Source: Oscillospiraceae bacterium | GTDB taxonomy: Bacteria; Bacillota; Clostridia; Oscillospirales; CAG-272 | Reading direction: 5' to 3' | DNA length: 36,951 bases | NCBI GenBank assembly: GCA_015064185.1 | Contig: SVSS01000012.1 | Span: 1 to 36,951 of the forward strand | Shown here: piece by piece, positions 15,831 through 33,348 of the stretch | How positions within the stretch are numbered: position 1 is the stretch's first letter | Layout of the letters: every line of letters begins with the position of its first letter | Made by a program: the position numbers and the translations under genes | Notes under the pieces: model-generated | Database searches by the model: none | The model's input: only the letters and a program-made list of their open reading frames with translations | What the model was told of the DNA's origin: nothing

Positions 15831-15870
15831 AAATAGGAAGACCAATTTGGTCGGGAAAACATAATATAAT

Positions 15871-16034
15871 GATAGAGGTGCACATTGCGACCTCGCACGG
15901 GCAAGGCAACCGTTGCCGCTTGAGCCCGCGTTGGGAGCGTAGCGTGCCGAAGTGAGGCGTTCGCGGTGAACGGCTTGCTGGTCTGCACGGTTCAGAGCTG
16001 TGGGACTGTCGTCAAGATTTGATGGAGAGCTATC
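15871..16034 (+). ncRNA. Lysine riboswitch (L box) aptamer
   Basis: The region begins GATAGAGGTGC, the conserved 5' core of the lysine riboswitch, and ends GGAGAGCTATC. The 5' GATAG and 3' CTATC close helix P1. Between lie several stem-loops, including the conserved GGGACTGTC segment. It is followed by a hairpin (16046-16063) and an intrinsic terminator (16084-16105), then dapA. Lysine binding should favour termination and lower DAP/lysine synthesis, as in the known family. The downstream lysine-pathway genes support the call. Confidence 0.93.
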
Positions 16035-16083
16035 TGTATATGTGCGATAAGGGGTGCCTTATCATATTATAGTACAAATACAG

Positions 16084-26410: not shown

Positions 26411-26447
26411 AAAAAAGCAGCGCATCTTAGCAAATGCGCTGCTTTTT
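26411..26447 (-). terminator. Terminator of the SPFH/P-ATPase/epimerase operon
   Basis: The stem AGCAGCGCAT/ATGCGCTGCT (26416-26425 with 26434-26443) is followed on the minus strand by six T. It lies about 45 bases beyond the epimerase stop. Confidence 0.9.
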
Positions 26448-26489: not shown

Positions 26490-27362
26490 TCATTGAAACA
26501 AAATCGAGAGCTCCACGCATTTTTCCGTGCCCGGCAAAAGGCGAAACATATTGCATTTTTGCTCGATCGGCAAAACACCGTCCTGCGATGCCATACCATA
26601 CCAAGGCTCTACACAAACATAAGGGCCGTCGTTTTGCGAGGACCAAAAGCCAACATAGGGCGCATCGCCATAGGATACCGTTACGCTGTGCGCGGCTTTA
26701 TCCGATTTCAGCGTCACGCTCTTTGACATGCCCGAGAGGAAAATGCCGTCCACACGGAATAGATCGTGCGAGAGCCACAACCGCTCGCCACCCTCCAAGG
26801 GATAGGGTAACCGTTTACCGCTGTCACAAAACTCCTCGGTAAACACCACATAATCGGGGCTGCACGGCTCGGAAAATTCAAGATAATAGTCGGCGTATTC
26901 GCCCTCACGGGAAAGCGGCACATTAAAGCCGGGGTGGCCGCCCACGGTGGCATACATCAGATCCTCTCCGCGATTTTCTACCAAGAGTCGGCAATTCAGC
27001 TGCATGCCTACCAGCTCGTATTTCACAGAAAACAAGAACTCAAAGGGATAGCAGCTGCGCGTTTCCTCATTGGGGGCAAGCGTGAACGTCAGCGAGGTGC
27101 TGCTCTGCTCGCTGACAGCAAAGACCTGCTTGCGTGCAAAGCCGTGTTGGGACATGCGATAAGTCTTGCCGCGATAGGTAAATTGCCCCTCAAAAAGATT
27201 GCTGCAAATGGGAAAGAGCCAAGGGGATGTTCCTCTCCAATAGGTAGGATCTCCCTGCCAAAGATATTCACAGCCATCCGCCTTTAAAACGCAGGACTTC
27301 AGCTCCGCACCAAGATCAGATATCTTGACCGTAAGGAATTCATTTTCAAGTGTGTAGATCAC
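26490..27362 (-). CDS. Aldose 1-epimerase family protein (LacX-like)
   Basis: This 290-residue protein belongs to the galactose-mutarotase-like superfamily. It has MIYTLENEFLTVKISDLGAELKS, QGDPTYWRGTSPWLFPICSNL, YRMSQHGFARK and GGHPGFNVPL, and near the end CVEPWYGMA. These match the LacX/YeaD-like branch, which may act on aldoses or sugar phosphates. The start is a GTG at 27362 with AAGGAG six bases upstream. It lies 23 bases downstream of the P-type ATPase gene without a terminator between, so it is likely the last gene of the SPFH operon. A functional link with the ATPase is unclear. Confidence 0.88.
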   Translation of the reverse strand: MIYTLENEFLTVKISDLGAELKSCVLKADGCEYLWQGDPTYWRGTSPWLFPICSNLFEGQFTYRGKTYRMSQHGFARKQVFAVSEQSSTSLTFTLAPNEETRSCYPFEFLFSVKYELVGMQLNCRLLVENRGEDLMYATVGGHPGFNVPLSREGEYADYYLEFSEPCSPDYVVFTEEFCDSGKRLPYPLEGGERLWLSHDLFRVDGIFLSGMSKSVTLKSDKAAHSVTVSYGDAPYVGFWSSQNDGPYVCVEPWYGMASQDGVLPIEQKCNMFRLLPGTEKCVELSILFQ

Positions 27363-27385
27363 GGTTTTCTCCTTCTATATAGCAA

Positions 27386-29296
27386 TTATTGCTTGCGCAA
27401 GATGCGAGAGCTGTTAAGCAGCACAGCAAATGCGCCGAAATTGTGAAGCACGGTTCCCGCCAGAGCACTGATCACGCCAAGGGCGGAAAGGGACATCATC
27501 ACAGCGGTGATGCCGATCGACAGCACCAGATTTTGATAGATCACACGGCGCGTTTGGCGCGCGAGTGACACCACAAACGGTATGTTCATAAGGTTGTTAT
27601 TCATCAGCGCAATATCAGCGGATTCAATGGCTAGATCCGAGCCCATAGCGCCCATGGCGATGCCAACCGTTGCCTCGCGCAGGATCAGCGCATCGTTGAT
27701 ACCGTCACCCACAGCAAGCACGTTATGCTCGCCCACCGAGATCTCGCGCAGGCGCTCAAGCTTATCCTGCGGCAACAGCTTTGCCATGACCTCATCCACA
27801 CCAATTTCTGCTGCAATTGCCGCAGCAGGCTCCTCGCGGTCGCCCGTGAGGATCACGGTCCTGCCCGCGCCAAGCGCACGCAACTCCGACACACACGCCG
27901 CGGCATTTTCGCGCACGGTATCGTTAAAGCACACAGCACCAAGCAGCTCCCCATCACGCGCAACATAGCTTACACTACCCAAAGCGCCCTCAGGAAAGCC
28001 GACGGGGATCGCTACGCCAACGCTCTCGAGCCACTCTCGTCTGCCAAAACGGATCACGGCGCCACCCTCGGCACTCTGTGCCTCCACGCCACCGCCCGAG
28101 ATCTCACGCACCTCAAGCGCGCGATCGAAATCAAGATGCTTTGTCGCCGCGCTGATCGCGCGTGAAACGGGATGTACCGATCCTACCGCCACAGAAGCCG
28201 CGGTACGCAGCAGCTCCTCCTCGGTCACATTGCCATAGGGGATGGCGGCATCAAGGCAGAGCTCGCCGCATGTCACAGTACCTGTTTTATCAAACACAAC
28301 GGTATCTATCTCGGTAAGCTCCTCGATAAACTTGGAGTTTTTGATCAGAATGCCGCGCTTGGTAGAAACCGAAAGCGCCGCGATCATGGGTGCTGAGCTG
28401 ACCAGCATCTGCCCACAGGGGCAGGAAACCACCAAAATGGCAATTGCCTTGCCGATATCCGCACTGACAAGCGCCACAGCACCTGCCACAGCCAGCACAA
28501 ACGGAATATAATATCCGAGGAAGCGGTCCGTGAGGCGAGATTCGGGCACTGAGATGCCCTCGGATTGCTCAAGCAATCTCAAGATCTTGGAAAAAGAGGT
28601 ATCTACGTACGCACGCTTTACCTCTACCACGATCCTACCCGTAAGATTGACCGTGCCCGCATATACCGTGTCACCCAAAGCCGCACGTGCAGGCTGCGGC
28701 TCACCCGTCAGAGATTTTTGGTCAATATCGGTTTCGCCGCTTACCACAACGCCATCGATCGGGATGCAGCACCCGGGCTTGATCACGATCAGTTGCCCTA
28801 TCTCAAGGGTGCGCGCATCCACCTCGCGCTCCTCGCCTTCTGCGAGAAGCACCGCTGTGGTCTGCTGCATTTTTTTGAGCCCTTCAATGACGTCACGCCC
28901 ACCCATGATGCTGCGCTCCTCGAGCAAATGCACCACATTAAGGATGAGTGGTATCAGCAAGCCGAGGATCAGCTCCTTCTGAAACACACACGCAACAACC
29001 GCGACGCCCACCAGGATCTCCATAGCGTTTGTTAAATTTTTTGTAAAAATACCCTTCACACCTGCCACGATCACGGGCACGCCCTCAATGAGCACACCGA
29101 CGAAATACAGCAGCTGCGGCACGATCTCATGCTGCCCCTTTAATATGTAGGTATAAAACAGCCCCACCGCAAGACAGGTCAGCGTAATCAGCCCGCATAT
29201 AATATCCCGTGTCAGCTTTTTGCGCCCCTGCTCGGTGAGATTATCCCGAGAGAGGGCCTCCAAGCTGCTACGGCCCATATGATCAATATTTTCCAT
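27386..29296 (-). CDS. P1B-like P-type ATPase without metal-binding domain
   Basis: This 636-residue heavy-metal-type cation pump has TGEP (197-200, actuator), a transmembrane metal-site motif SCPCG (291-295, instead of the usual SCPCAL), the phosphorylation site DKTGT (336-340, Asp336), an HP dipeptide at about 373 (SVHPVS), and GDGIND (530-535). It has no N-terminal CxxC heavy-metal domain; the N-terminus is a short charged stretch before the first helix. About eight membrane helices are visible. The ion is not clear. It follows the SPFH genes at 22 bases and shares their promoter, and an epimerase gene follows. Ribosome-binding site: GTGGGG before the ATG. Confidence 0.9.
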   Translation of the reverse strand: MENIDHMGRSSLEALSRDNLTEQGRKKLTRDIICGLITLTCLAVGLFYTYILKGQHEIVPQLLYFVGVLIEGVPVIVAGVKGIFTKNLTNAMEILVGVAVVACVFQKELILGLLIPLILNVVHLLEERSIMGGRDVIEGLKKMQQTTAVLLAEGEEREVDARTLEIGQLIVIKPGCCIPIDGVVVSGETDIDQKSLTGEPQPARAALGDTVYAGTVNLTGRIVVEVKRAYVDTSFSKILRLLEQSEGISVPESRLTDRFLGYYIPFVLAVAGAVALVSADIGKAIAILVVSCPCGQMLVSSAPMIAALSVSTKRGILIKNSKFIEELTEIDTVVFDKTGTVTCGELCLDAAIPYGNVTEEELLRTAASVAVGSVHPVSRAISAATKHLDFDRALEVREISGGGVEAQSAEGGAVIRFGRREWLESVGVAIPVGFPEGALGSVSYVARDGELLGAVCFNDTVRENAAACVSELRALGAGRTVILTGDREEPAAAIAAEIGVDEVMAKLLPQDKLERLREISVGEHNVLAVGDGINDALILREATVGIAMGAMGSDLAIESADIALMNNNLMNIPFVVSLARQTRRVIYQNLVLSIGITAVMMSLSALGVISALAGTVLHNFGAFAVLLNSSRILRKQ

Positions 29297-29318
29297 ATAT
29301 ACACCCCACTGTACACAA

Positions 29319-30260
29319 CTACGGATTGATAAAGATCTTATTATCCCCGTCTTGCACCACGTAGACCTTTTTCAGCTTTTGCATAAAGGCAATGGATTTG
29401 GCGGAATAGATGCGCGTTTTTACAACATCGGGTCGCTGCTCATATTCATCAAGCACGCCCCAAAACTCCGCGAGCTCCGTGTTTGCCACTGCAATCTTTC
29501 TTGAAAATTCGGCGTTTGCCTCAGCGACCAGCGTCGTTGCCTCTGAATCTGCCGCCAACAGCAGTCCTGCCTTGTATTGATTGGCACGTTCCACAGTAGT
29601 CGTCGCCTGTACGGTAGCGGAATTGACCGCCTCATACACGTCACGCACCTCCTCGGGCATGCTGACGTTTGTCAGCTCTACAGTGGTAAGCGTGACACCG
29701 GCTCCCATAACGGCAAGCTTTTCCTGTGCGCGCTTCAAGACCGACTTGGCATAGGCATCCTTGCCGTCAGTAAGCAAATTGTCAACATTAACGCGTGCCG
29801 CCTCGTTGAGCATGGCGGTGCTCACGGAGGTGTTTATCACAGCGGAAATGTCCTTTACGTACAACGCATACGCAACAGGATCCGAAATAACGTATTTTAC
29901 AGAAGCAGCTACCACGGCAATATTTTGATCACCCGTGATCACATATCCGCCATCAAGCGTAGTAGCCTCGTTAGGATCCGTGTAATACGTGGTAACCTTT
30001 TGCTCCATCACTCTCCCCGTAGGGACCATGATGACCTCATCGATGATATAGGGAAATGCAAACATGAGCCCCGGCTCCTGCACCTGCTCCTCATAATTGT
30101 CGCCCACCAGCTTGCCAAAGCGCAGCACCACAGCTACGTTGCCCGTTTCAACCACACGAAGGCCCGAAAGGAAGATGCCGATGACCACAAGAATGACCAG
30201 TATCAAAAAATACTTAGTGACTGTTTCGAGAACGTCGGCAAATAATGTTTTTTGCTTCAT
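29319..30260 (-). CDS. SPFH-domain membrane protein, HflC/HflK-like
   Basis: This 313-residue protein has an N-terminal membrane helix (about 18-35). The SPFH/band-7 domain begins VVETGNVAVVLRFGKLVGD and continues with EPGLMFAFPYIIDEVIMV. A helical, Ala/Glu-rich stretch (about 215-265) follows, and the tail ends DNKIFINP. In E. coli, HflK and HflC form a cage around FtsH; no ftsH lies here. The ATG at 30260 follows AAGGAG seven bases away, and the gap after the preceding gene is 11 bases. It is the third of three adjacent SPFH genes and precedes the P-type ATPase. Assignment to the SPFH family is firm; the partner is inferred. Confidence 0.9.
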   Translation of the reverse strand: MKQKTLFADVLETVTKYFLILVILVVIGIFLSGLRVVETGNVAVVLRFGKLVGDNYEEQVQEPGLMFAFPYIIDEVIMVPTGRVMEQKVTTYYTDPNEATTLDGGYVITGDQNIAVVAASVKYVISDPVAYALYVKDISAVINTSVSTAMLNEAARVNVDNLLTDGKDAYAKSVLKRAQEKLAVMGAGVTLTTVELTNVSMPEEVRDVYEAVNSATVQATTTVERANQYKAGLLLAADSEATTLVAEANAEFSRKIAVANTELAEFWGVLDEYEQRPDVVKTRIYSAKSIAFMQKLKKVYVVQDGDNKIFINP

Positions 30261-30271
30261 ACACACTCTCC

Positions 30272-31396
30272 TTACGGCATCGTAATGCCGTTATCCGCGG
30301 CAGCCTGCTCAATCAGTGCGGCAATACCGTTGATGAGCGCCTCGCGCTCCGCCTCGGGGAGCTTAGTGAGAATGTAGGTAAGATCCTTGATAACGGTCTG
30401 ATCACCCTCGATCTCCATATTTTTCGAGTACTCGGTCAAAATGTTAAAGGGATACTCATCTGCTTTCACGACCAAAATCGTTGAGTTGTTTACAGAAGAT
30501 ACCACCGTATCAAGGTTTTTGAGGAATTTATAAAGCTCGATATTGGCAGCTTGCGCATCGGCATAGATCTTGGCAACCTCGGTTTCTGTCTGCGCCTTAA
30601 TAGCAGCCGCATCGATCACGCCTTGATTGACTCTATCCGCCGCCTCAACATCCGCGCCCGATGTGATCTCATTTGCCTTTCTTTCAGCCTCTGCAAGTAT
30701 AATATCAATATCCTTTTCACGGTCCGCGCGCATCTGCTCAAACACCGCATTCAGGTTTTGATCCGGCAAGGACAAGCGCAGGATGCTCACATCCACCACA
30801 TTGATGCCGTAATTGACGAGGCAATTCTCCTTCACACGGGTAAAGATCTCATTTTGGATCTCATCGATCTTGATATTTTCCTTTTCAAGCGAAACAAGGG
30901 ACGTAAGCTCGTATGCACCAAGTGTGCTGTTCGTGGCACTAAAGATCTGCGCCTGAATATACGACTCCGCTACGCCTGCCGCGCCAACGCTGTTGTGATA
31001 GAGCACGGGGTCAGCAATCTCCCACACCGCACAGGATTGCAAAATGATATTGCGCTTGTCCTTTGTTGTCGTTTCCAGTCGGTTTGATTCAAGCGTGATC
31101 AGACGGTCATCATACGTTACAACAGTTTCAAAGGGCCATGGCAGCTTCATGTAAAGCCCTGCCTCCTCGGTTTCGGCGCGCACCGCGCCAAAGCGCAAAA
31201 CCACAGCGCAGCTGCCCTCACGCACCTCGTAGGTAAATCCAAACCAGAAGAGCACCAAGAGCACGATAGCAGCGGTCAAATATTTTGCCACTCTGCTCAT
31301 TATACCGAGAGCCCCCTCCTTCTTTTTCGCAGGCGCATTGGTTGCAGTGCTCTCTGCGATCAGCTGCTTTGCATCATTTATCTTTCTTTTACTCAT
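30272..31396 (-). CDS. SPFH-domain membrane protein, HflK-like
   Basis: This 374-residue protein has a basic cytoplasmic N-terminus, one membrane helix (about 45-61) and an SPFH domain. The domain contains VREGSCAVVLRFGAVRAETEEAGLYMKLPWPFETVVTYDDR, the PWPF signature of HflK-type proteins. A coiled helical segment (about 240-300) and a C-terminal extension follow. I chose the ATG at 31396, preceded by GAGGA, ten bases after the preceding gene's stop. The gene lies between the long SPFH fusion and the HflC-like gene in one operon. It probably assembles with its neighbours into a hetero-oligomeric membrane cage. Confidence 0.9.
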   Translation of the reverse strand: MSKRKINDAKQLIAESTATNAPAKKKEGALGIMSRVAKYLTAAIVLLVLFWFGFTYEVREGSCAVVLRFGAVRAETEEAGLYMKLPWPFETVVTYDDRLITLESNRLETTTKDKRNIILQSCAVWEIADPVLYHNSVGAAGVAESYIQAQIFSATNSTLGAYELTSLVSLEKENIKIDEIQNEIFTRVKENCLVNYGINVVDVSILRLSLPDQNLNAVFEQMRADREKDIDIILAEAERKANEITSGADVEAADRVNQGVIDAAAIKAQTETEVAKIYADAQAANIELYKFLKNLDTVVSSVNNSTILVVKADEYPFNILTEYSKNMEIEGDQTVIKDLTYILTKLPEAEREALINGIAALIEQAAADNGITMP

Positions 31397-31406
31397 GATA
31401 GATTCC

Positions 31407-33227
31407 TCACTCCTTTGCATCGGAAGTAATACTTCCGATGTAAATGTTTTCCTCGTTGACGCCGTTTCCGACGATCACGATCTTTGCCCCCGAATATGCC
31501 TGGGAAATGGCTTGCATGTACTTGTAATAGCGGTAGTCATCGGGGTAAGCCTTATCTGCCTCCACGCTTGCAAGAAATTCTGCAACCGACCCCTTAGCCG
31601 CTCCGATCGCATCGTAGCGTTCAATATTGGCAAGTGCCACCTTGCTGTCATAATCCACCCACGCCCAGGCAATGCGCTCGCCCTTGTACGCTTCTGCATT
31701 GATCAAGATCTTTTCCGCCTCGATCTCGGCGCTGATGAGCTCCTGATACACGTCAGCGATCTCCACGGGCGGGTGAATGCTTTCAAGCACCACACTAACG
31801 ACCTCAAGGCCGGTATTGTATCGCGCCATATATGTACTCAGCTCCTCACGGAAGGTTTCGGCAAACACCGCACGGTCGCCCGAAAGCATGGTATCAAGAT
31901 CACTTGTAATGGTGCGCATCGTCACGATCTCGTAAGACGCCGCGCTCATGAGAAGCTCGGGGGTGGCGCTGGTCGTAAGATAGGCACGCAGATCGGAAAT
32001 GCGGTACATCACACGCAAATTGATCGAAACCAGCTCGTTGCCACCGCCAAGCAGCAGGCGATACTCGTCACTGCCATGGGCTTCTGTCCAGAAGTTGTCG
32101 GCATTCCCCTCGGAAACATAGCCCACTGTCATCTGGCTCACGGTTTTGGTGTCATAGACCTCCACCTTGTCAAAGGGCCAAGGAAGCGTCAAATGAAGAC
32201 CGGGGTCAAGTGTTTCCTCCTGCAGCCTGCCGAGGCGATAATGCGCCGCCTCCTGATTGGAGTTGACCAGGACAACACTGCTTGCACCCCAAAGCAACAG
32301 CACCGCGCCAAGCGCGGCAAAGGGCAACGCCTGCTTGATCATCTGCATGCTCCAAAGCGAGCGCATACTGATGCCCGTATTTTTTTCAAGATAGGTAAGA
32401 ATGCCAAGGCTTCCGCCCTCAACCCCCGGTGCGGGGGCTGTGATCTCGGGTGCCACGCCAAGCTCGTGTCTGACCAAAACCACAAACAGTGAGATCATCA
32501 TAAACACCGTTTTGTACGCAAACAGCAACACCAAGGCAAGCGTGAGCCATTTGGAAAGATCGTATGATCCAAGCAATATCAGCAGTATGGTGGCAGCCGT
32601 CAGCAGCAGTGCAAGACGTCCAAGGGCAAATGCGCTTTGCAGATTGCGCAGCAGGGCAATGCCGTATCTTGCCGTCGCGCCGTCACCGGACCTCTGTGCG
32701 ATCTCACGGGCGCGGTGCTTACACCACTTGCCAAGCACAATGAACACCACAAAGACGGCAGCAATAAGTACAAGCAAAAAATAACTCAACCGATTGGTAT
32801 AGGATGTGCCTCGTGCCGCACTCCAAAAGAACACATTTATCACCGCCACGGCGATAACGATCAAGGCGGCCAGCAAAGGCGTGCGCTTGCGCGCCACCAA
32901 GCGCACGCATGCGCGCACCGTGCGCGCAGCTCCGTTTTTCAGAGTCGCGCCAAATCCTTTTTGGGGCTTATCCTTATCAACGTCAGTGTTATTTTCCAAC
33001 GCCTGTGCGTCAGGCTGCTCCGTTTTACCAAAGCTGCCACGCGGGATCAACAAACAAAAATTGATTGCTGCGGGCATTAATAAGAGCAACGCGATCAGCA
33101 GTAAGGGCTGAAAATACGTTTGATAACGCAGCACGATAAGTAGCGTGGCACTTGCCACAAGACAACCGACCGATGCAAGCGTGACCTTGTTTGCCATGCC
33201 CCATGGCTTGCGGGGTTTTTGGCTCAT
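31407..33227 (-). CDS. Polytopic membrane domain fused to an SPFH (HflK-like) domain
   Basis: This 606-residue protein is much larger than HflK (about 400). The first 300 residues carry about six hydrophobic segments (about 13-33, 39-62, 119-137, 146-167, 205-222, 228-252) and no known domain. A seventh segment (about 303-325) leads into an SPFH domain: NSNQEAAHYRLGRLQEETLDPGLHLTLPWPFDKVEVYDTK, again with PWPF. Later comes VVLESIHPPVEIADVYQELISAEIEAEK, the HflK-like helix. The ATG at 33227 follows TGGAGG seven bases away; an upstream frame to 33284 is less likely. This is the first gene of the operon, behind the promoter at 33320-33348. The N-terminal domain could anchor or gate something in the membrane, but its function is unknown. 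Confidence 0.88.
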   Translation of the reverse strand: MSQKPRKPWGMANKVTLASVGCLVASATLLIVLRYQTYFQPLLLIALLLLMPAAINFCLLIPRGSFGKTEQPDAQALENNTDVDKDKPQKGFGATLKNGAARTVRACVRLVARKRTPLLAALIVIAVAVINVFFWSAARGTSYTNRLSYFLLVLIAAVFVVFIVLGKWCKHRAREIAQRSGDGATARYGIALLRNLQSAFALGRLALLLTAATILLILLGSYDLSKWLTLALVLLFAYKTVFMMISLFVVLVRHELGVAPEITAPAPGVEGGSLGILTYLEKNTGISMRSLWSMQMIKQALPFAALGAVLLLWGASSVVLVNSNQEAAHYRLGRLQEETLDPGLHLTLPWPFDKVEVYDTKTVSQMTVGYVSEGNADNFWTEAHGSDEYRLLLGGGNELVSINLRVMYRISDLRAYLTTSATPELLMSAASYEIVTMRTITSDLDTMLSGDRAVFAETFREELSTYMARYNTGLEVVSVVLESIHPPVEIADVYQELISAEIEAEKILINAEAYKGERIAWAWVDYDSKVALANIERYDAIGAAKGSVAEFLASVEADKAYPDDYRYYKYMQAISQAYSGAKIVIVGNGVNEENIYIGSITSDAKE

Positions 33228-33319
33228 AGTATAACCTCCATTTGAACAATTCGTGTCAAATATGCAATCAAAATGCCAACTCAAAAAGAGTTGCTATTTA
33301 ACATTAAATACATGATTTT

Positions 33320-33348
33320 ATTATAATATTACTTTCATAATTTGTCAA
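33320..33348 (-). promoter_or_regulatory. Promoter of the SPFH/P-ATPase operon
   Basis: On the minus strand, TTGACA (33348-33343), 17-base spacer and TATAAT (33325-33320): a full consensus match. The leader of about 85 bases contains a GCAACTC/GAGTTGGC hairpin near 33275-33294. Confidence 0.88.

Follow-up and report, generated by a model that had tools for sequence, protein, structure and literature searches.

What do three SPFH proteins act on when their genes share an operon with that of a metal-transporting ATPase? The question is posed by positions 1 to 36,951 of contig SVSS01000012.1 from an Oscillospiraceae bacterium (assembly GCA_015064185.1, genome G000), hereafter called the window. 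Its minus strand carries a run of five genes, P1 to P5, encoding three SPFH proteins, a P1B-type ATPase and an epimerase-like protein, for which a sequence-only reading had proposed that the SPFH trio may form a scaffold around or regulating the pump. The linkage of the trio and the ATPase is very well supported, and the evidence leans somewhat towards the operon encoding a dedicated membrane metal-transport assembly, with the P1B ATPase as the cargo of the trio. The operon has the following parts:

33320..33348, minus strand: promoter TTGACA-17-TATAAT, sigma-70-type, 12/12 consensus
31407..33227 including stop, minus strand: P1, predicted CDF/SLC30-like six-helix domain and SPFH part, 606 residues, Band_7 E 3e-13
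30272..31396 including stop, minus strand: P2, HflC-like SPFH protein, 374 residues, Band_7 E 1e-23
29319..30260 including stop, minus strand: P3, HflK-like SPFH protein, 313 residues, Band_7 E 2e-21
27386..29296 including stop, minus strand: P4, P1B-type metal ATPase, 636 residues, Pfam E1-E2 ATPase and HAD hydrolase
26490..27362 including stop, minus strand: P5, aldose-1-epimerase-like protein, 290 residues, Aldose_epim PF01263 E 2e-26
26412..26447, minus strand: intrinsic terminator, hairpin of 16 pairs with U run, -23.5 kcal/mol, z -5.2

Conservation and joint inheritance of four genes

Orthologues of P1 and P4 occur together in 17 of 21 genomes of the genus, the window's own included, and are jointly missing from the other four (G006, G009, G011 and G017, which are 70, 88, 82 and 97% complete). 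The order P1-P2-P3-P4 on one strand was found at 15 of 16 fetched genus loci; the sixteenth, from G008, has P3 and, in two frames, P4, with P1 on another contig. The P1 profile matched 35 of 394 genomes of the order at E 1e-25, only five of them with a full-length polytopic protein (G000, G003, G139, G193 and G214). A wider profile scan of contigs gave at least 19 loci, at least 18 with the polytopic protein, and 13 of these 18 apparently belong to genus genomes already counted; sources among the matches listed are sheep colon, roe-deer cecum, water-deer cecum, goat rumen and 'Lapin'. Three further linked ATPases were recovered with the P4 profile from 391 genomes of the class (G707, G470 and G695), and three of the 11 genomes in the one-genus family of G470 have a linked ATPase with the trio. 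The four genes stand in order at nine further loci, seven of which come from other genera, families or orders (L111 of G193, L112 of G214, L113 of G139, L148 of G707, L149 of G470, L150 of G695 and L200 of G1171) and two, L105 and L108, from metagenome-assembled genomes. Loci L106 and L109, which end inside the operon at contig ends, were excluded from the adjacency count. The adjacency of SPFH genes and ATPase, whose restriction to a single genome would have counted against the sequence-only reading, is therefore conserved far beyond the window genome. In a phylum sample of 398 genomes searched at E 1e-140, ATPases matched in 14; the one of the window genome (1079 bits) alone has a score typical of linked ATPases, the other 13 reaching 470-509 bits, and the stretches fetched around ten of these 13 contained no SPFH gene, G1120, G958 and G891 being outside the ten. 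The four-gene unit is rare and patchy.

Protein distances are closely correlated among P1 to P4 (r 0.95-0.98), and much less so between these proteins and RecA (r 0.48-0.60; 11 genomes, 55 pairs). RecA of G014 is 89% identical to that of the window genome, but P1, P2, P3 and P4 are only 32, 47, 44 and 52% identical. P4 of G707, a member of another order, is 68-69% identical to its counterparts in G193 and G214, with RecA at 62-64%; the G707 RecA is nearer to those of G695 and G470 (75 and 72%), whose P4 proteins are only 40-41% identical to that of G707. In the trees of P1, P2 and P3, the operon proteins form one group each, with largely common branching, and the P4 tree agrees in the main; the positions of L105 and L108 differ between the four trees, and L098 was left out of alignment A8 because of a faulty frame. 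Since the distances agree mutually and not with RecA, the four genes seem to have moved between lineages together. Judging from these comparisons, they seem to be one conserved, horizontally travelling unit in gut Clostridia.

The promoter, the close spacing of five genes and the single terminator described in the sequence-only reading were all confirmed. Consecutive genes are separated by 10, 11, 22 and 23 bases, and purine-rich stretches, read by eye as ribosome-site-like, lie 5' of the starts. Within the scanned 11 kb, 18 promoter-like sites were found against 9.7 expected, three of the 18 being perfect. The terminator was identified from its folding energy and is not among the calls of a terminator pattern scan. 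The epimerase fared differently as a proposed member of the system and was rejected: P5 lies directly 3' of P4 at just three of the 16 fetched genus loci (L038, L039 and L042) and in the window, L046 being uninformative as it ends just past P4. Because P5 rarely follows P4, the conserved unit consists of the four genes P1 to P4. On the other side of the operon, genes for BspA-type leucine-rich-repeat proteins (PF13306) directly precede P1 in two distant operons (L105:5851-7791, plus strand; L113:10325-11329, minus strand). No riboswitch was found upstream of the operon at Rfam gathering thresholds in the window, where the sole Rfam match is a lysine riboswitch away from the operon (RF00168, 62.8 bits, 15865-16040, plus strand), followed by a gene that we take by eye to be dihydrodipicolinate-synthase-like.

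The ATPase subclass and its SPFH partners

P4 is a heavy-metal P1B ATPase (TIGR01525, 468.5 bits; cut-off 346.25) with the motif CPCGQMLVSSAP in transmembrane helix 4 (TM4) and an HN motif in the last helix. All 25 SPFH-linked ATPases have CPC[GA][QH][MI]L[VI]SS in TM4, and the corresponding CPC[GA][QH]xLxSS signature occurs in none of 31 unlinked ones; conversely, the usual form CPC[AS][LF]xx[AS]xP is present in all 31 unlinked and in none of the 25 linked rows. The 31 unlinked rows leave out the ATPase beside an ordinary HflK-HflC pair of G707, described below, a limit of 550 residues removed the broken G008 ATPase from the comparison, and sequences with the same residues 101-400 were treated as one row. 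The last-helix HN motif is found in 24 of 24 linked rows, and also in some unlinked ones. The CtpC-type, 'P1B6-like' ATPases are characterised by the combination of a TM4 CPC and a last-helix HN (PMC9374683), and the two motifs occur together in the 24 linked rows, which places P4 in that type. The hallmarks CPC, HP motif, DKTGT, TGE and GDGxND are invariant in 13 aligned operon ATPases, so P4 should be active, as far as catalytic motifs can indicate. No Pfam metal-binding domain was found at its N-terminus. The linked ATPases form one group with 100/100 support in a tree of 47 (24 linked, 23 unlinked); its midpoint root serves the drawing alone, and the tree program gave a warning about the meeting of long branches. 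The scores against the genus P4 profile are separated by a gap, with linked ATPases at 651 bits or more and unlinked ones at 441.4 bits or less. P4 is thus a distinct P1B subclass that occurs, among the ATPases examined, only with the SPFH trio.

Three of the seven CtpC-type unlinked ATPases with neighbours listed adjoin metal-sensitive repressors (PF02583), an argument for a metal as the substrate in the wider group. DUF6110 was absent from the five open reading frames scanned with Pfam, all beside unlinked ATPases, among those listed near six linked and seven unlinked ATPases. A YibE/F-like gene is convergent with P4 in both G470 and G695 (L149:5559-6746, plus strand, Pfam-scanned; L150:10432-11604, minus strand), and in L150 it adjoins a gene that appears FeoB-like by eye. 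The P4 gene of G008 is split between its two reading frames at L053:944-2867 (plus strand), by sequencing error or real loss.

All three SPFH proteins exceed the Pfam cut-off of 23.6 bits for Band_7 (P1 50.6, P2 84.6, P3 77.0). P2 is nearest to HflC, with 133.5 bits against the TIGR01932 cut-off of 134.4 and 134.6 bits in the genome-frame search; its orthologues in G003, G014, G470 and G695 score above this cut-off, and those in the operons of G139, G193, G214 and G707 do not pass it. P3 and the SPFH part of P1 are nearest to HflK, with TIGR01933 scores, determined for the window proteins, of 125.7 and 91.5 bits below a cut-off of 159.4. Because these are the nearest NCBIfam models, gene 2 is HflC-like and gene 3 HflK-like, the reverse of what had been read from the sequence at first. 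The nearest solved structures are likewise HflC for P2 and HflK for P3, and the SPFH part of P1 is of HflK type by both profile and fold, with a long helix following the SPFH domain. P2 and P3 each have one main N-terminal hydrophobic segment, and P1 has seven predicted membrane helices, six in a domain of residues about 7-254 and the seventh at 288-315. The hydrophobic segments and the charge of the loops, judged by eye according to the positive-inside rule, suggest that the N-termini of P1 to P3 are inside and their SPFH parts outside the membrane. The window genome, of 1.53 Mb in 16 contigs, encodes six Band_7 proteins, the trio and three others; judged by their sequences, one of the three resembles QmcA, another a flotillin, and the third appears to have repeated cysteine pairs.

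The membrane domain of P1 and the CDF-HflK sister operons

Residues 7-254 of P1 have the predicted structure of a six-helix zinc transporter of the CDF/SLC30 fold. The metal-site motif [HDNE]xxx[DEH] was found in TM2 in none and in TM5 in one of 24 sequences, PF01545 (CDF) had no match in P1 at E 0.001, and hhalign of the P1 N-terminal domain against the CDF domain of the operons described next gave a probability of 0. As sequence homology was not detected, the CDF reading of P1 is based on the predicted structure and on these sister operons. For the six extra helices of P1, the prediction is a domain that has the CDF fold but lacks the metal site.

The sister operons occur in three genomes of the same order (G192, G107 and G290) and contain genes for a PpiC-type isomerase, a CDF-HflK fusion, HflC and HflK, in this order, with one extra gene before the fusion in G107. 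The fusions have intact HxxxD motifs and the PpiC-type gene upstream:

L132:8259-9785, minus strand: CDF-HflK fusion
L125:2299-3831, minus strand: CDF-HflK fusion
L131:8702-10231, minus strand: CDF-HflK fusion

Their CDF part is recognisable (PF01545, E 3e-25 to 5e-28), keeps the motifs HS[FM]TD and HSKMD and is accompanied by a His-rich linker; the HflK part is above the TIGR01933 cut-off. No P4-type ATPase was found in the fetched stretches of the three operons, of which the G192 contig stops just past the trio. Two HflK proteins and one HflC, the first HflK with a CDF-type domain, are thus encoded either with an apparently intact CDF and without the ATPase, or with a dead CDF and the ATPase. 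In the tree, P1 and the CDF-HflK proteins do not group together, so a common origin of the two fusions is unsupported. CDF-HflK fusions were absent from the 398-genome phylum sample at E 1e-60, where two matches cover the HflK part only.

Proposed assembly, alternatives and known systems

Based on these observations, an assembly can be proposed. P1, P2 and P3, two of HflK type and one of HflC type, would form a joint ring, dome or open spiral in the manner of E. coli HflK/C, with their SPFH parts on the extracytoplasmic side of the membrane. P4 would be the cargo, held and stabilised in the enclosed membrane patch, and may pump metal into the lumen of the assembly. The CDF-fold domain of P1 would most likely be a docking or partner module for P4, and in the sister operons a CDF with metal motifs is fused to HflK, as though the transporter had become part of the cage itself. 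The proposal draws on precedent: in E. coli, HflK/C and FtsH reach into the periplasm, forming closed cages on overproduction and an open nautilus in the native complexes (PMC12048511), and stomatin domes hold AQP1 and UT-B (PMC12407830). Work on PacL-CtpC and the effluxosome indicates that related pumps can need membrane scaffolds (PMC9374683, PMC13043812). The physical enclosure of P4 by the trio has about even chances. We speculate, much more tentatively, that a hetero-oligomeric SPFH dome encloses its private P1B subclass, with the dead CDF domain as partner, and that the pump exports metal into a sealed space outside the cytoplasm, where it would be stored, used for metalation or released under control.

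The trio could instead be an HflK/C variant that still acts on FtsH, with the ATPase as a client of FtsH that is protected or regulated, its turnover being controlled by the trio; we regard this as unlikely. Several observations nevertheless count in its favour and against the assembly proposed here. P1 to P3 are nearest to HflK and HflC in sequence and fold, with four P2 orthologues passing the HflC cut-off as given above, and in G000 the trio provides the only HflC-type match over the cut-off. The absence of ftsH had been used as an argument for a different partner; there is indeed none in the operon, but FtsH is encoded elsewhere in all 13 genomes checked (nine with and four without the operon), on contig G000:C14 in the window genome, so the argument was rejected. 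In E. coli, hflK and hflC are likewise not beside ftsH, and for this reason the absence of ftsH from the operon means little. Furthermore, PMC13220708 gives mgtA as one of the known substrates of FtsH, and MgtA is called a P-type ATPase in its reference list. On the other hand, two of the nine operon-bearing genomes checked, G139 and G707, have an ordinary HflK-HflC pair besides the operon, and FtsH is still encoded in the four genus members that lack the operon, none of which has an HflC-type match over the cut-off, so FtsH does not need the trio in such genomes, though the trio may bind FtsH as well. Ordinary pairs, moreover, rarely adjoin a pump gene: for 23 of 24, drawn by the P1 profile in the order sample or taken from G139 and G707, the 3.7-15 kb that were fetched contain no P1B gene. 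The exception is the G707 pair (L202:708-4797, minus strand), in which the HflC gene overlaps the next gene, that of a P1B ATPase with an N-terminal CxxC motif.

It is more improbable still that the genes share only their regulation, the trio organising lipids or domains generally and the ATPase handling metal without contact between them. SPFH proteins are described as organisers of the cell membrane (PMC12005517), and a shared stress can co-transcribe genes. Yet the polytopic P1 was never found without the ATPase subclass, nor the subclass without SPFH genes, where the contig was long enough, and the joint divergence of the four genes in G014 (P4 52% identical to that of the window, with RecA at 89%) also speaks against this reading. 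Least probable in our view is that P1 to P3 mainly chaperone the pump and deliver metal to it, on the model of PacL and CtpC, with no closed dome. The resemblance of P4 to the CtpC type in its CPC and HN motifs (PMC9374683) and the clustering and stabilisation of such pumps by PacL proteins (PMC13043812) fit this explanation; however, the solved relatives of the SPFH parts form rings or cages, according to the fold matches and PMC12048511, and the membrane domain of P1 has no apparent metal site.

The proposed assembly of the trio around P4 can be compared with several known systems. It resembles HflK/HflC-FtsH of E. coli in the type of SPFH proteins, in the adjacency of an HflC-like and an HflK-like gene and in the nearest solved structures; it differs in having three SPFH proteins instead of two, the first with a six-helix CDF-fold domain, and a P1B ATPase as the fourth gene. 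P1 and P3 are far under the HflK equivalog cut-off and P2 straddles that of HflC; for the single N-terminal helix of HflK and HflC, the counterparts to be compared are one main hydrophobic segment each in P2 and P3 and seven predicted membrane helices in P1. The PacL1-CtpC platforms of mycobacteria likewise combine a P1B ATPase, marked by the TM4 CPC and the last-helix HN, and a membrane partner of scaffold type encoded with it, but the putative partner here is the SPFH trio and not the small PacL/DUF6110 protein, P4 has no Pfam N-terminal metal-binding domain, and its group differs from the 31 unlinked P1B rows in the TM4 signature. The human erythrocyte stomatin domes with AQP1 or UT-B set a precedent, as they show a transporter enclosed by an SPFH dome (PMC12407830). 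These domes are, in contrast, eukaryotic and homodimer-built, and their cargo is a channel or facilitator, neither a pump nor genetically linked. The stomatin dome is on the cytosolic face of the membrane. The predicted fold of P1 residues 7-254 is common with CDF/SLC30 transporters such as YiiP and ZnT, but P1 lacks a PF01545 match, the TM2 and TM5 metal motifs and the CDF C-terminal domain, in place of which it has the SPFH part. Flotillin-associated rhodopsin clusters also pair an ion-pump relative with an SPFH gene and are implicated in membrane microdomains (PMC10308929); they involve rhodopsin and flotillin, not a P1B ATPase and HflK/C, and pumping is doubted there.

Among the papers listed in searches of the open-licence literature of PMC, none deals in its title or the beginning of its abstract with an SPFH trio encoded beside a P1B ATPase, or with a fusion of CDF and HflK. 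A survey of prokaryotic SPFH proteins (PMC2636767) does not mention an ATPase, P-type, metal or transporter, and the available part of a study of nine Pseudomonas SPFH genes (PMC13086221) mentions no ATPase or transporter; the latter cites older work implicating bacterial SPFH proteins in ion or metal metabolism.

The cargo of bacterial SPFH proteins besides FtsH is largely open, and P4 is a genetically fixed candidate with its own signature, which makes the caging of a transporter by SPFH proteins testable in bacteria. The CtpC-like group, with its established links to membrane platforms, gains a metal-pump subclass with altered TM4 residues, and HflK is shown to occur in fusions with domains of CDF type. 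If the enclosure of P4 holds true, the CDF-HflK sister operons would follow this principle in another form, the cage wall itself containing the fused transporter. The conserved unit of trio and ATPase hints at a metal pump in bacteria that operates within, or next to, a protein cage dedicated to it.

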